Shown: piece by piece, positions 1-4,196 of the stretch
How the letters are laid out: each line of letters starts with the position of its first letter
Numbering within the stretch: position 1 is the stretch's first letter
NCBI GenBank assembly: GCA_021372535.1
Contig: JAJFUH010000170.1
Span: 1 to 54,134, forward strand
Direction: 5' to 3'
Length of the DNA stretch: 54,134 bases
From: a bacterium
GTDB lineage: Bacteria; Latescibacterota; Latescibacteria; Latescibacterales; Latescibacteraceae
Notes under the pieces: generated by a model
Told to the model about the DNA's origin: nothing
Database searches by the model: none
The model's input: only the letters and a program-made list of their open reading frames with translations
Translations under genes and position numbers: made by a program

Positions 1-1148
1 CGCGTCTCTTTCAGTTCGTCACGGGCGGGAGTGAATGCGGGATCGAAATCGAGGGCTCTTTTGAAGCAATTCCGTGCATCTTCGGATGCGCCTGTTTTCT
101 TTAAAACGCACCCGAGTTCATACATTACCGATGCATGCCCCGGTTCAATCATAAGCGCGGTATTATATCGTTCGATTGCGGCGTCAAACTCTTCCATGTC
201 GGTATATAACCGGGCAAGGTTGAGGTTGGCATCAAAATTATACTGGTCGGCGGAAAAAGCCCTGTTAAAATATTCCATTGCTTTTTCCGTGTCTTTTTTC
301 CCCCTGTAAGCGAGCCCGATGATATTATATGCCGCCGGAAGAACGGGATTTATCTCCAGAGCCTTTGTACAGGTTTCGATTGCGGAATCGTACGCTTCAT
401 TTTTCATGTGTACGAGCGCCATCGAGATATAAAGGGCGCTGTTATTCGGGTCCACCCCGATAGCTTTTTTATAATGAGCGACTGACTCGCCATATGCGCC
501 GAGGATACCCTGAACGCAGGCGCAGCCGATGCGCCCCGGCAGACAATCCGGATCGATTTCAAGGGCTTTTTTGAACTGTGCGAGCGCATCCTCATATTTT
601 TCAATATTTTTAAGCGCTTCTCCGAGATAAACACGAATCAGAGCGTCCCCGGGATTGATTTCGATGGCTTTTTCATACTGTTCAGCCGCTCCCATGTAAT
701 CACCGGTATTGAAAAGCGAGGAACCGAGGTGCACGTATGCATGAACGTTGTTTCGGTCACGGTCGATTGCCTTTTTATAACTCATGACGGCTTCGGAGAA
801 ATTCCCCTGAAGGCGGTAGCATTCACCGCAATAAAAATCGTTATCGCCATTTTTCGGATCGAACGCTGAAGCCTGCGTGAAAAAATATACCGCGCTCGCG
901 TAATCGTTCTTTCTGAAATACGACATGCCGAGACGGTTGAAAATCACCGCATCGCCCTGTGTTGACTCTATGGCTTTTGTATAATATGCTATGGCGTGGT
1001 CAAAATCCCCTTTTTCGAAAGACTCATTTCCTTTTTCGACAAGGTTCCGGTCGATATTCTGGGTTTCCGCAGTAATCGGCATGACAAGAGGCAATGCCGC
1101 GATAACCATTATTATAATGAGGAAAAGATGTGTCTGTCTGATTTTCAT
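1..1148 (-). CDS. Exported TPR-repeat protein, truncated by left edge
   Basis: The frame is open from an ATG at 1148 to the window edge, about 382 codons, with no stop, so the C-terminus is missing. Residues 1-27 form a signal peptide (basic start MKIRQTH, then a hydrophobic run ending near ITAETQ). From about residue 38 the protein is a continuous series of 34-residue tetratricopeptide repeats with the usual spacing (examples: GDFDHAIAYYTKAIE, EKYEDALAQFKKALEIDP, KDTEKAMEYFNRAF), about ten copies. TPR solenoids bind other proteins. No catalytic domain is visible in the part present. It lies 82 nt downstream of the SUMF1 lipoprotein and is probably the last visible gene of the caspase-like operon. 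It is likely a periplasmic or outer-membrane scaffold. I see no clear Shine-Dalgarno site, so the start rests on the signal peptide. Confidence 0.85.
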   Translation of the reverse strand, partial: MKIRQTHLFLIIIMVIAALPLVMPITAETQNIDRNLVEKGNESFEKGDFDHAIAYYTKAIESTQGDAVIFNRLGMSYFRKNDYASAVYFFTQASAFDPKNGDNDFYCGECYRLQGNFSEAVMSYKKAIDRDRNNVHAYVHLGSSLFNTGDYMGAAEQYEKAIEINPGDALIRVYLGEALKNIEKYEDALAQFKKALEIDPDCLPGRIGCACVQGILGAYGESVAHYKKAIGVDPNNSALYISMALVHMKNEAYDSAIETCTKALEINPVLPAAYNIIGLAYRGKKDTEKAMEYFNRAFSADQYNFDANLNLARLYTDMEEFDAAIERYNTALMIEPGHASVMYELGCVLKKTGASEDARNCFKRALDFDPAFTPARDELKET

Positions 1149-1230: not shown

Positions 1231-2352
1231 TCAGAGATTTCCGTTTCGGACAATCCTGAGTCCGATACCGCTGGATTTTGCTCCCTCATTGCAGCGTGAC
1301 CGCGCAGAAGACCGGCATGTATATGCATCGCTCATCCAGTTTCCCCCGCGAACGATTGTGGATCTTCTCCGGGTTTCGGGACCCGTGGGATTTACCCCGG
1401 GACTGGAACCATAGTAAGTATCACTGTAAATGTCGTAACAGAATTCGGAAACATTGCCATGCATATCATACAGACCCCATGCATTCGGTTCTTTTCCTGC
1501 GACCGGCCATGTCGATACTCTGCAGTTAAGGGTATACCATCCCGCATTGTCGAGGTCCTGTTCCGTGTCTCCCGTATTGTAACTGGTTATCGTCCCCGCA
1601 CGGCATGCGTACTCCCACTCGGCCTCTGTGGGCAGCCGGTAACCGTTTCTGGTGTAATCGCAGTTCCATGATTCCTCGTCATAGCATGGCTCCAGACCCG
1701 CGATTATGCTCACCTGGTTGCAGAATTTCAGCGCATCTTCCCATGAAATGCTGTCGACGGGACAGGTCATATCGAGATTAAACCGTGAGGGATTTGTGAG
1801 CATGATGTTTTTCCACTGTACCTGCGTAACTTCCGTGGTACCAATTATGAAGGCATCGAGGGTGACGGTATGAACCGGTTTTTCATCGGTTTCGCCGGAA
1901 TCCGAACCCATCTGAAAGCTGCCGGCGGGAACCGCCACATACCCATGCTTTTTCATGGCAACGGTTACGGATGTGGTCTGATCGGGAACAACAGTGATAC
2001 CGGGTGTTTTCCCCATATAGGAAATCGACCAGATGTTATCGAATCCCATGACTTTCACCGTTATCCCGCTCTGCGCCCTTATCCGGAATGTTTTTGATAT
2101 CTGTATCCCATCATACGAGAATACCTCGCCGCCGATGAGCGAGTGAAAACTATCGTACACGAAAACAAGCGCGTGTGTCGTTTTTTCTTCAGTCGAGGCT
2201 GCTTTTGCGGCATGCTCATCGGGGAAAACAAGCTTTATACTCACCGAGCCGTATTGTTCGTCCGTCTCAGTAGACTTGAGCGGACTTTTTTTACTGCACG
2301 AAAGGAAGAGTACGATTAAAATCATCATGAATGCCGGAAAAAATCTGCGCAT
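1231..2352 (-). CDS. SUMF1/FGE-sulfatase-domain lipoprotein (non-catalytic type)
   Basis: This 373-residue protein has a lipoprotein signal (lipobox LFLSC, Cys19). Residues about 30-140 form a beta-rich segment, followed by a SUMF1-type C-lectin-like domain: VPAGSFQMGS, EKPVHTVTLDAF, RLPTEAEWEYACRAG, YDMHGNVSEFCYD and a closing GLRIVRN. Genuine formylglycine-generating enzymes carry a Cys pair near the RGGS segment. Here the segment reads VRGGNWMSDAYTC, so the first Cys is missing and the protein is probably a binding or structural domain. I start it at 2352 because AGGTGA sits 8 nt upstream and the signal peptide begins there. An upstream ATG at 2382 would overlap the previous stop as ATGA but adds ten residues before the signal. 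It lies between the beta-sandwich gene and the TPR gene and is probably cotranscribed with them. Confidence 0.85.
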   Translation of the reverse strand: MRRFFPAFMMILIVLFLSCSKKSPLKSTETDEQYGSVSIKLVFPDEHAAKAASTEEKTTHALVFVYDSFHSLIGGEVFSYDGIQISKTFRIRAQSGITVKVMGFDNIWSISYMGKTPGITVVPDQTTSVTVAMKKHGYVAVPAGSFQMGSDSGETDEKPVHTVTLDAFIIGTTEVTQVQWKNIMLTNPSRFNLDMTCPVDSISWEDALKFCNQVSIIAGLEPCYDEESWNCDYTRNGYRLPTEAEWEYACRAGTITSYNTGDTEQDLDNAGWYTLNCRVSTWPVAGKEPNAWGLYDMHGNVSEFCYDIYSDTYYGSSPGVNPTGPETRRRSTIVRGGNWMSDAYTCRSSARSRCNEGAKSSGIGLRIVRNGNL

Positions 2353-2378
2353 TGCCGTTGTCACCTCATAGATGCTTC

Positions 2379-2888
2379 TCATTCGGGGAAAAAGATTTCA
2401 ACCAAGACCGTTCCGAACTGAATGACCGGAATGGGGCCTTCCGTTTCTTTTCCGGTTTCGCCTCCGCCGGACATCAGGGCAACAGCCCCGCCTACAAGCA
2501 CGAGTCCCGCAAGGATATACAGTTTATTTACCGGTTTCCCCGGTTCCTGTGTGGCTTCGAGCATGATAACCATGTCGCCGGTGAGTCGGTCAATATCCCT
2601 GAAAACATCCCATTCGATAAGCCGGTTGGCTCCGGGACCGATTCCTTTCCCCACATCGCCCGAAAGCGCCGTGGGTTTGATCGGGAACGTTTTACCGCCA
2701 TCCAGCGAAACCTGAATGGAAACGGTGTATGTCCCTTTTCCGGTAATCTGGTAGCTGATCAGCACCGTTTCATTCGATGTGATGTTGCACTGGATATTTC
2801 CGATGGTGGCGGCCGCTGCCTGAGACCGGAACAGCATTACCGCAATCAGTCCGACAGACAGGCATTTTCTCCAGTTTTTCACTCGCAT
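2379..2888 (-). CDS. Small exported beta-sandwich protein with C-terminal hydrophobic segment
   Basis: This 169-residue protein is not assigned to a named family. Residues 1-27 are a signal peptide ending near QAAAA. Residues about 30-115 look like an Ig or fibronectin-III-type beta sandwich (alternating hydrophobic strands, SLDGGKTF turn, LIEWDVFRDI). Residues about 122-141 form a hydrophobic, glycine-ending stretch (LYILAGLVLVGGAVALMSGG) that could anchor it in the membrane. Its ATG follows the stop of the caspase-like gene directly (TAAATG), which suggests translational coupling. The tight position between a caspase-fold protein and a SUMF1 lipoprotein suggests that it bridges or presents these partners at the envelope. 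That role is inferred from context only. Confidence 0.75.
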   Translation of the reverse strand: MRVKNWRKCLSVGLIAVMLFRSQAAAATIGNIQCNITSNETVLISYQITGKGTYTVSIQVSLDGGKTFPIKPTALSGDVGKGIGPGANRLIEWDVFRDIDRLTGDMVIMLEATQEPGKPVNKLYILAGLVLVGGAVALMSGGGETGKETEGPIPVIQFGTVLVEIFFPE

Positions 2889-4196
2889 TTATTTCGCTCC
2901 GGCAAGAATAAGTTCTGCATTACCCGTGAACCGCGGATGCTGGACATGAGCATTGAATATGACCTGTGACAGGCCGGGAACCCCGATTTTTTCATCGGCC
3001 ACGTTTTTGAACAAATCCCCGGCGAAAATGGCGGTTTTCCCCTCCATTGCGAGGTTTCTGGCCGAATCGAGAAAAACATAGGTAAAAAGACCATGCATGG
3101 ATTCATGATACCGGCCGGACCTCTCTCCGGGTGAGGCAGCCATAAAAAGCGCCATATTCCCGAACCTGTCCGCATAACCGTCGATATCGGTTCCGGCTGT
3201 ACCCTGATTTCCGGTATCGGAAAAAGCAGTATCGATCACGAGTGTCACCGACCGTGGTTTCAAAACGGCGAGGTTGTTCAGGAGGAGTTCGAGAGAGCAG
3301 CCGCTTTCCTGGAGATTCTCAGGGGCGTACGCGCTGTCCACCGGTATAAGACATGGTATGCCCGTTTTCTGGTCAACAGCGCCGAAACCGCAGTAATAGA
3401 TGAATACATCCGATGTATCCGGTTTTATATACTGCGTCATGATGCCCGCCGATTTAACGGTACCGAAAACCTCGCGGAAATCGTCAGCCGTTGCATTCTG
3501 ATAGAAGAGAATACGGTCGGGGTCATATCCGAAAACACGGACGAGATATTCCCGCACAGTCCGGGCGTCGTTTATCGCATAAGCGTTCGATCCGAAGGAC
3601 GCGGGATCGTAGTCACAATTTCCGATTACGACAGCGACACCGTCGGGGTTGACACAGCCTGTAGAAGGAACGGCATCGTCTATGGAAATCCGGTTCATGG
3701 TAGTACGGATGGTTGTCGGGGTACTGTTACGGGAGTTGTTTTTCGCCCTGCACGAAAGCGCGATATCGACCACCGCCGGTGAATAACCGTACTTCTCGGT
3801 TATTGCAAGTCGCAGAGGTATGATGCGGTCGGTTATGGAATCGGGCGCACTTGACGAGAAGGTCAACAGTTTTTTCCCGCCCGGAGGAATGGTTCCGGCC
3901 ACTGAGGACTGTTCGAGCACGATTCCGTTCAGCGGCCCCCCCGAAATATATCCTTTCACATCGTATGCCTTCCCTCTGCCCATGTTGGTAATCTCTACGA
4001 CAACCTGTGCTTCCTGCCCGGCATCCATGTAACGGTCGGGATCGCTGAAACTAACCGTTACACCGAGCACAGGTTTCTGATGAACAAGGGAAACCGGAAT
4101 GAGAGCCGATTTGCTGAATATGATTTCAGCGAACGCCCCGGAACGGAAGGGCATCAGAATGGCGCAGAGAAGAAAAAACCACAATCGCATCGGCAT
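2889..4196 (-). CDS. Exported caspase-fold (peptidase C14-like) protein lacking catalytic His and Cys
   Basis: 435 residues with a signal peptide (1-23). Residues about 44-150 form an Ig-like/CARDB-type domain (GQEAQVVVEITNMGRGKAYDV). Residues about 185-420 form a caspase p20-like domain, recognisable from GVAVVIGNCDY, AINDARTVREYL, FIYYCGFGAVDQKTG and LIPVD. In active family members the His lies in a GHG motif and the Cys in DACFSG. Here these read CGFG (Phe271 in place of His) and DTAFSD (Ala324 in place of Cys). The codons are TTC and GCT, so neither change is a single-base ambiguity. The protein is therefore predicted to be a pseudo-protease. It is the first gene of the minus-strand operon and abuts the next gene with no gap. 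An alternative ATG lies at 4190. Confidence 0.88.
   Translation of the reverse strand: MPMRLWFFLLCAILMPFRSGAFAEIIFSKSALIPVSLVHQKPVLGVTVSFSDPDRYMDAGQEAQVVVEITNMGRGKAYDVKGYISGGPLNGIVLEQSSVAGTIPPGGKKLLTFSSSAPDSITDRIIPLRLAITEKYGYSPAVVDIALSCRAKNNSRNSTPTTIRTTMNRISIDDAVPSTGCVNPDGVAVVIGNCDYDPASFGSNAYAINDARTVREYLVRVFGYDPDRILFYQNATADDFREVFGTVKSAGIMTQYIKPDTSDVFIYYCGFGAVDQKTGIPCLIPVDSAYAPENLQESGCSLELLLNNLAVLKPRSVTLVIDTAFSDTGNQGTAGTDIDGYADRFGNMALFMAASPGERSGRYHESMHGLFTYVFLDSARNLAMEGKTAIFAGDLFKNVADEKIGVPGLSQVIFNAHVQHPRFTGNAELILAGAK

Follow-up and report, generated by a model that had tools for sequence, protein, structure and literature searches.

A putatively exported pseudo-orthocaspase in a conserved envelope operon of Latescibacterota

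The window, a 54,134-nucleotide stretch of DNA that constitutes contig C170 of a Latescibacterota genome (5.35 Mb, 96% complete), encodes a caspase-like protein, P0001, in which both catalytic residues have been replaced. The orthologous protein from a second species in this genus (P0002 in genome G001, on JAFGMP010000341.1 of Candidatus Latescibacterota bacterium Zod_Metabat.481) shares 44–45% identity with P0001. We consider P0001 to be probably a genuine exported pseudo-orthocaspase that has no catalytic role and instead provides an envelope complex with a binding or scaffold module, as suggested by the context of its operon. The protein would be secreted across the inner membrane and would act through binding instead of cutting, as the caspase-shaped part of a complex with a DVGxG membrane protein, a SUMF1-like lipoprotein and a TPR protein. 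A peptide or protein partner is probably held in the old substrate groove, in which the two acidic pocket residues are retained. The module as a whole may have originated by duplication of a caspase/DVGxG/FGE module with an active caspase, of the kind that contig C24 carries in this genome.

Architecture and catalytic sites of P0001

The P0001 gene (2889..4196, minus strand) is the first gene of its operon and consists of an uninterrupted ORF from ATG to TAA that encodes 435 residues. Inspection of the N-terminus by eye revealed a probable Sec signal peptide, MPMRLWFFLLCAILMPFRSGAFA (residues 1–23; 4128..4196, minus strand), with the apparent cleavage site before a Glu residue, and a hydrophobic start is also present in the orthologue. 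The signal peptide is followed by a CARDB/NEW3-like Ig domain (residues about 40–151; 3744..4079, minus strand), which was delimited by alignment to the first repeat of the paralogue P0003; this repeat-containing paralogue matches NPCBM_assoc/NEW3 and also carries CARDB, and the Ig-like region of P0001 is additionally matched by TIGR03900. The caspase p20-like domain (residues 186–383; 3048..3641, minus strand) was assigned from Pfam, alignment and a low-confidence model. Pfam Peptidase_C14 (PF00656) matches these residues above its cut-off (E 1.7e-7; 31.6 bits against 21.4) as a single stretch ending at residue 383, and the homology runs on to about residue 431 in the alignment. P0001 scored below the NCBIfam cut-off for the EACC1-associated caspase NF047832 (28.3 bits against 140).

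Alignment placed Phe271 (TTC; 3384..3386, minus strand) at the position of the catalytic His of GHG and Ala324 (GCT; 3225..3227, minus strand) at that of the catalytic Cys of DACFSG. In non-redundant active relatives, these columns are occupied by His in 16 of 16 and by Cys in 17 of 17 sequences. The orthologue has Tyr (TAT) and Ser (AGT) instead, and the His-Cys dyad of an active C14 peptidase is absent from both proteins. The Phe271 and Ala324 codons are each two bases away from a His or Cys codon; Phe271 could have arisen from Tyr by a single base change, which would explain its two-base distance from His. Chance or an assembly error is very unlikely to lie behind the dead dyad, because the frame-intact orthologue has lost both residues too. 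The preliminary description had proposed an intact frame with a signal peptide, a caspase p20 fold and the catalytic His and Cys replaced by changes of more than one base each, and our analysis agrees with it on all of these points.

Two acidic residues that correspond to the S1 pocket of metacaspases are retained in both dead copies: Asp210 of the NDA motif (3567..3569, minus strand), which is also present in 15 of 15 active relatives, and Asp322 of the DxC/A motif (3231..3233, minus strand), identified by alignment. Judging from the motif and from PMC6426788, Asp210 would be the equivalent of TbMC2 Asp95, and Asp322 is likely to be the equivalent of TbMC2 Asp211. P0001 thus combines a p20 domain bearing a substituted His-Cys dyad with both acidic pocket residues, two of the features by which Klemencic et al. 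(2019) define pseudo-orthocaspases, alongside the absence of a p10 domain and proteolytic inertness.

An AlphaFold model of the p20 domain, built on a two-sequence alignment, was of low confidence (mean pLDDT about 54, pTM 0.59), and the full-length model, also from two sequences, had a mean pLDDT of 47.5. When the low-confidence p20 model was submitted to Foldseek, a metacaspase and MALT1 were among the top PDB matches (E 1.6e-4 to 8e-4, TM about 0.4). A PDB sequence search with P0001 and P0002 gave only weak metacaspase matches (E 0.21 and worse). The model is only indicative; it backs the caspase/hemoglobinase fold and is silent on the emptied active site.

The operon and its sister modules

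Genes 1–3 of the operon are either directly adjacent or share a few bases, gene 4 lies close behind, and the same four-gene order (pseudo-caspase, DVGxG protein, SUMF1/FGE-like lipoprotein and TPR protein) is found in the second species. Gene 2 (2379..2888, minus strand) starts directly after the stop codon of gene 1 and encodes a putatively exported 169-residue protein with a DVGxG domain that is shared with C24 and other genomes. By eye, this protein has a signal peptide and one TM segment near its C-terminus, and it is 55–56% identical to its orthologue. Its weak match to midcut-by-XrtH NF033207 (18.9 bits, cut-off 45) is probably due to chance or composition. Gene 3 (1231..2382, minus strand) overlaps gene 2 by 4 bases and encodes a lipoprotein (lipobox ..LFLSC) with a SUMF1/FGE-like domain (PF03781, E 1e-46) and 46% identity to its orthologue. 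Alignment with the S. coelicolor FGE (2q17/6muj) showed that, of the two residues we take to be the copper-binding Cys pair of FGE, the first is missing and the second is present; because the first is missing, the lipoprotein is probably not a formylglycine-generating enzyme.

Gene 4 (3..1148, minus strand) is an open-ended ORF with TPR Pfam matches that is cut by the contig end. Its complete orthologue (L032:7982-9514) is 35% identical, and its C-terminal CARDB-like part appears to start contig C143 (match at C143:1-365). Contigs C170 and C143 are apparently adjacent and broken within the TPR gene. Two other interpretations of the locus were set aside: a role in anti-phage defence is unsupported, as PADLOC anti-phage models gave no meaningful match to genes 1–3, and a diversity-generating retroelement at the lipoprotein gene was rejected, with no template-like match there and the two reverse transcriptases located on other contigs.

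Apart from the orthologue, 23 homologues in which both sites could be read have His/Cys; they range from two paralogues in the same genome to proteins of other phyla. The sole further homologue lacking His/Cys is a doubtful, distant and long-branched p20-like fragment from another Latescibacterota genome (L018:3-626, G038:C26), in which the dyad columns hold Gly and a residue other than Cys (YSGGG, DVHSP); given its long branch and uncertain alignment, it is possibly an independent pseudo-caspase. The dead caspase gene was found in two species, both of one genus. A scan of GTDB genomes with P0001 alone returned no relative, and a scan with the P0001 and P0002 alignment, whose two peptide patterns were drawn from the Ig domain and could detect close relatives alone, returned only the known orthologue. 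No relative was found on viral contigs, and searches of the phyla of G259, G200 and G374 gave no members beyond the known ones, all of which have His/Cys. In the tree, the two dead copies are sisters (support 100/99) and are nested with the two active same-genome paralogues (93/81 and 99/97). This nesting of the dead pair among active paralogues suggests that activity was most likely lost after duplication, either before the species split or in parallel within the clade.

One of the active paralogues, on C24, lies in a module that comprises a DVGxG protein, a lipoprotein with FN3 repeats and an FGE domain, the active caspase (His/Cys) and a DVGxG protein with a longer C-terminus. Downstream of this module is a 505-residue protein with an SH3b1 domain (PF12913; L033:9261-10778), which may be an NlpC/P60-type cell-wall hydrolase. 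The second active paralogue (L036:782-7283, on C194) is a 1054-residue protein with FG-GAP-like repeats (by eye), two CARDB-like domains and a caspase domain, and its gene is followed by one for a Ser/Thr protein kinase.

The presence of two His/Cys paralogues in the same genome, one of them in a matching module, together with the retained acidic pocket, would fit a dead caspase that inhibits or licenses the active paralogues on C24 and C194 by binding their partners or substrates. The second species, however, keeps the dead operon, and neither the family profile nor PF00656 found an active caspase in its genome, which is about 91% complete; as the PF00656 whole-genome search missed even the dead copies, this absence is evidence rather than proof. 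Since no active caspase was found there, the decoy or inhibitor role offered in the preliminary description becomes less likely, and we regard regulation of the paralogues as unlikely overall.

A module of related composition occurs in the distant Latescibacterota genome G046, where a lipoprotein, a DVGxG protein and a CARDB protein are encoded in a row without a caspase domain (L086:1971-4742, G046:C191). The N-terminus of this lipoprotein resembles that of the window lipoprotein by eye; the G046 protein also shows TolB-like repeats (by eye), and its DVGxG neighbour has a TM segment. The module therefore exists in three states, with an active caspase (C24), with a dead caspase (the window and G001) and with none (G046). 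Because the G046 row has no caspase domain, the envelope module seems not to need protease activity. A broader reading, which we put forward tentatively and with some doubt, is that of an envelope machine of exported non-enzymes, in which the dead caspase and the non-FGE SUMF1 lipoprotein would be held by the DVGxG membrane protein, and the caspase fold would serve as an interchangeable binding element in a larger Latescibacterota complex with these three states. The active sister module and the caspase-free relative provide a natural series for examining the role of a non-cutting caspase fold.

The G046 row, with its CARDB and DVGxG proteins lacking a caspase domain, could also mean that the caspase fold is purely a structural spacer and that the Ig domain is the part that matters. 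This is quite improbable, as both species retain the p20 motifs and the pocket Asp residues and the identity of the p20 domain equals that of the Ig domain.

Constraint on the p20 domain

The p20 domains of the two species are 47% identical and give a dN of 0.46, a dS of about 2.3 and a ratio of about 0.2; these are NG86 values for one species pair, and with dS at or near saturation the ratio is rough. Conservation is similar in the Ig domain and the lipoprotein gene, higher in the 169-residue gene and lower in the TPR gene. In a set of 17 active relatives, 36 positions show conservation of 85% or more, and both dead copies still have the conserved residue at 21 of them. The catalytic His and Cys and the Gly of DACFSG are among the positions that neither copy retains, whereas Asp210 and the HGLFTY motif persist. 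The core motif HGLFTYVFL is identical in P0001 and the orthologue. At the level of sequence, this pattern is that of a constrained pseudo-enzyme and not of a decaying gene.

The loss of both catalytic residues, and the fact that their replacements differ between the species as expected of a site free to drift, might be taken as signs of a relic of a duplicated caspase gene that is decaying without present function. Against this, both species preserve the frame, the signal peptide and the operon order although their synonymous sites have diverged almost to saturation, and the p20 domain, with its low dN/dS and unchanged core motif, is as conserved as its neighbours; a relic is very improbable. 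The preliminary description had anticipated a clade that keeps Phe/Ala under purifying selection: the selection is seen, but the Phe/Ala pair is not shared, the orthologue having Tyr/Ser. It had also named the restoration of His and Cys in close relatives as an outcome contrary to its proposal, and none was seen, the only orthologue being dead as well. With a dead orthologue under purifying selection, the conserved, exported and non-proteolytic use of the caspase fold that it proposed appears well founded.

An alternative is that P0001 remains a hydrolase that uses a different nucleophile: Cys269 lies two residues ahead of Phe271, and the orthologue carries Ser where the catalytic Cys would be. 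This is extremely improbable. Near the site, the two proteins share no substitute His/Cys or Ser pair: the orthologue has Ser in place of Cys269, and the side chain of Ala324 offers no nucleophile. To our knowledge, neither Tyr nor Phe can provide the general base that the known mechanism requires.

Relation to known pseudo-orthocaspases and envelope lipoproteins

Pseudo-orthocaspases are already published, and what is new here is the phylum, the Phe/Ala dyad, the putative export and the conserved operon. According to PMC6426788, they account for 858 of the 9,994 orthocaspases in bacteria; Alphaproteobacteria and Cyanobacteria contain about 90% of them, Tyr/Ser is the commonest dyad, and the acidic pocket and fold are retained. 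The dyads given in PMC6426788 and PMC8283722 include YS, YN, YA and FS, and in an earlier survey (PMC3501461) only 84% of the caspase homologues of bacteria had an intact dyad. Phe/Ala does not occur among the dyads of the consulted passages, including the 18 cyanobacterial types of PMC8283722. A literature search for Latescibacterota and caspases together returned no relevant paper.

Like the published bacterial forms, P0001 has a p20 domain with a replaced dyad and retained pocket Asp residues and belongs to a clade nested among active forms, and the second species carries the classic Tyr/Ser pair. P0001 differs from them in its Latescibacterota origin, its Phe/Ala pair, its putative export behind an Ig-like domain and its conserved envelope operon. 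Whereas pseudo-orthocaspases have so far been tied mainly to photosynthetic bacteria, P0001 falls outside those groups. SyOC of Synechocystis, another dead p20 protein, is likewise of biological use, since its deletion alters survival under oxidative stress (PMC7889975). It belongs to another phylum than P0001. We know of no operon or export architecture common to the two. TbMC1 and TbMC4 of Trypanosoma brucei also have a substituted dyad, including Tyr/Ser, and the cell still makes use of them, according to work cited in PMC6426788 and PMC8283722, but they are eukaryotic type I metacaspases with neither an operon nor a CARDB domain. What a caspase fold that cannot cut is used for is a question that P0001 shares with eukaryotic pseudo-caspases.

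The gene 3 lipoprotein resembles GldK/PorK of the type IX secretion ring in being an FGE-fold lipoprotein of the envelope, and it matches the NCBIfam GldK model with an E-value of 3.3e-28. GldK/PorK is a structural component of that ring. An assignment of gene 3 as GldK was rejected, as its score of 99 bits lies far below the equivalog cut-off of 350. The best PDB match of the lipoprotein is TvpA of T. denticola.
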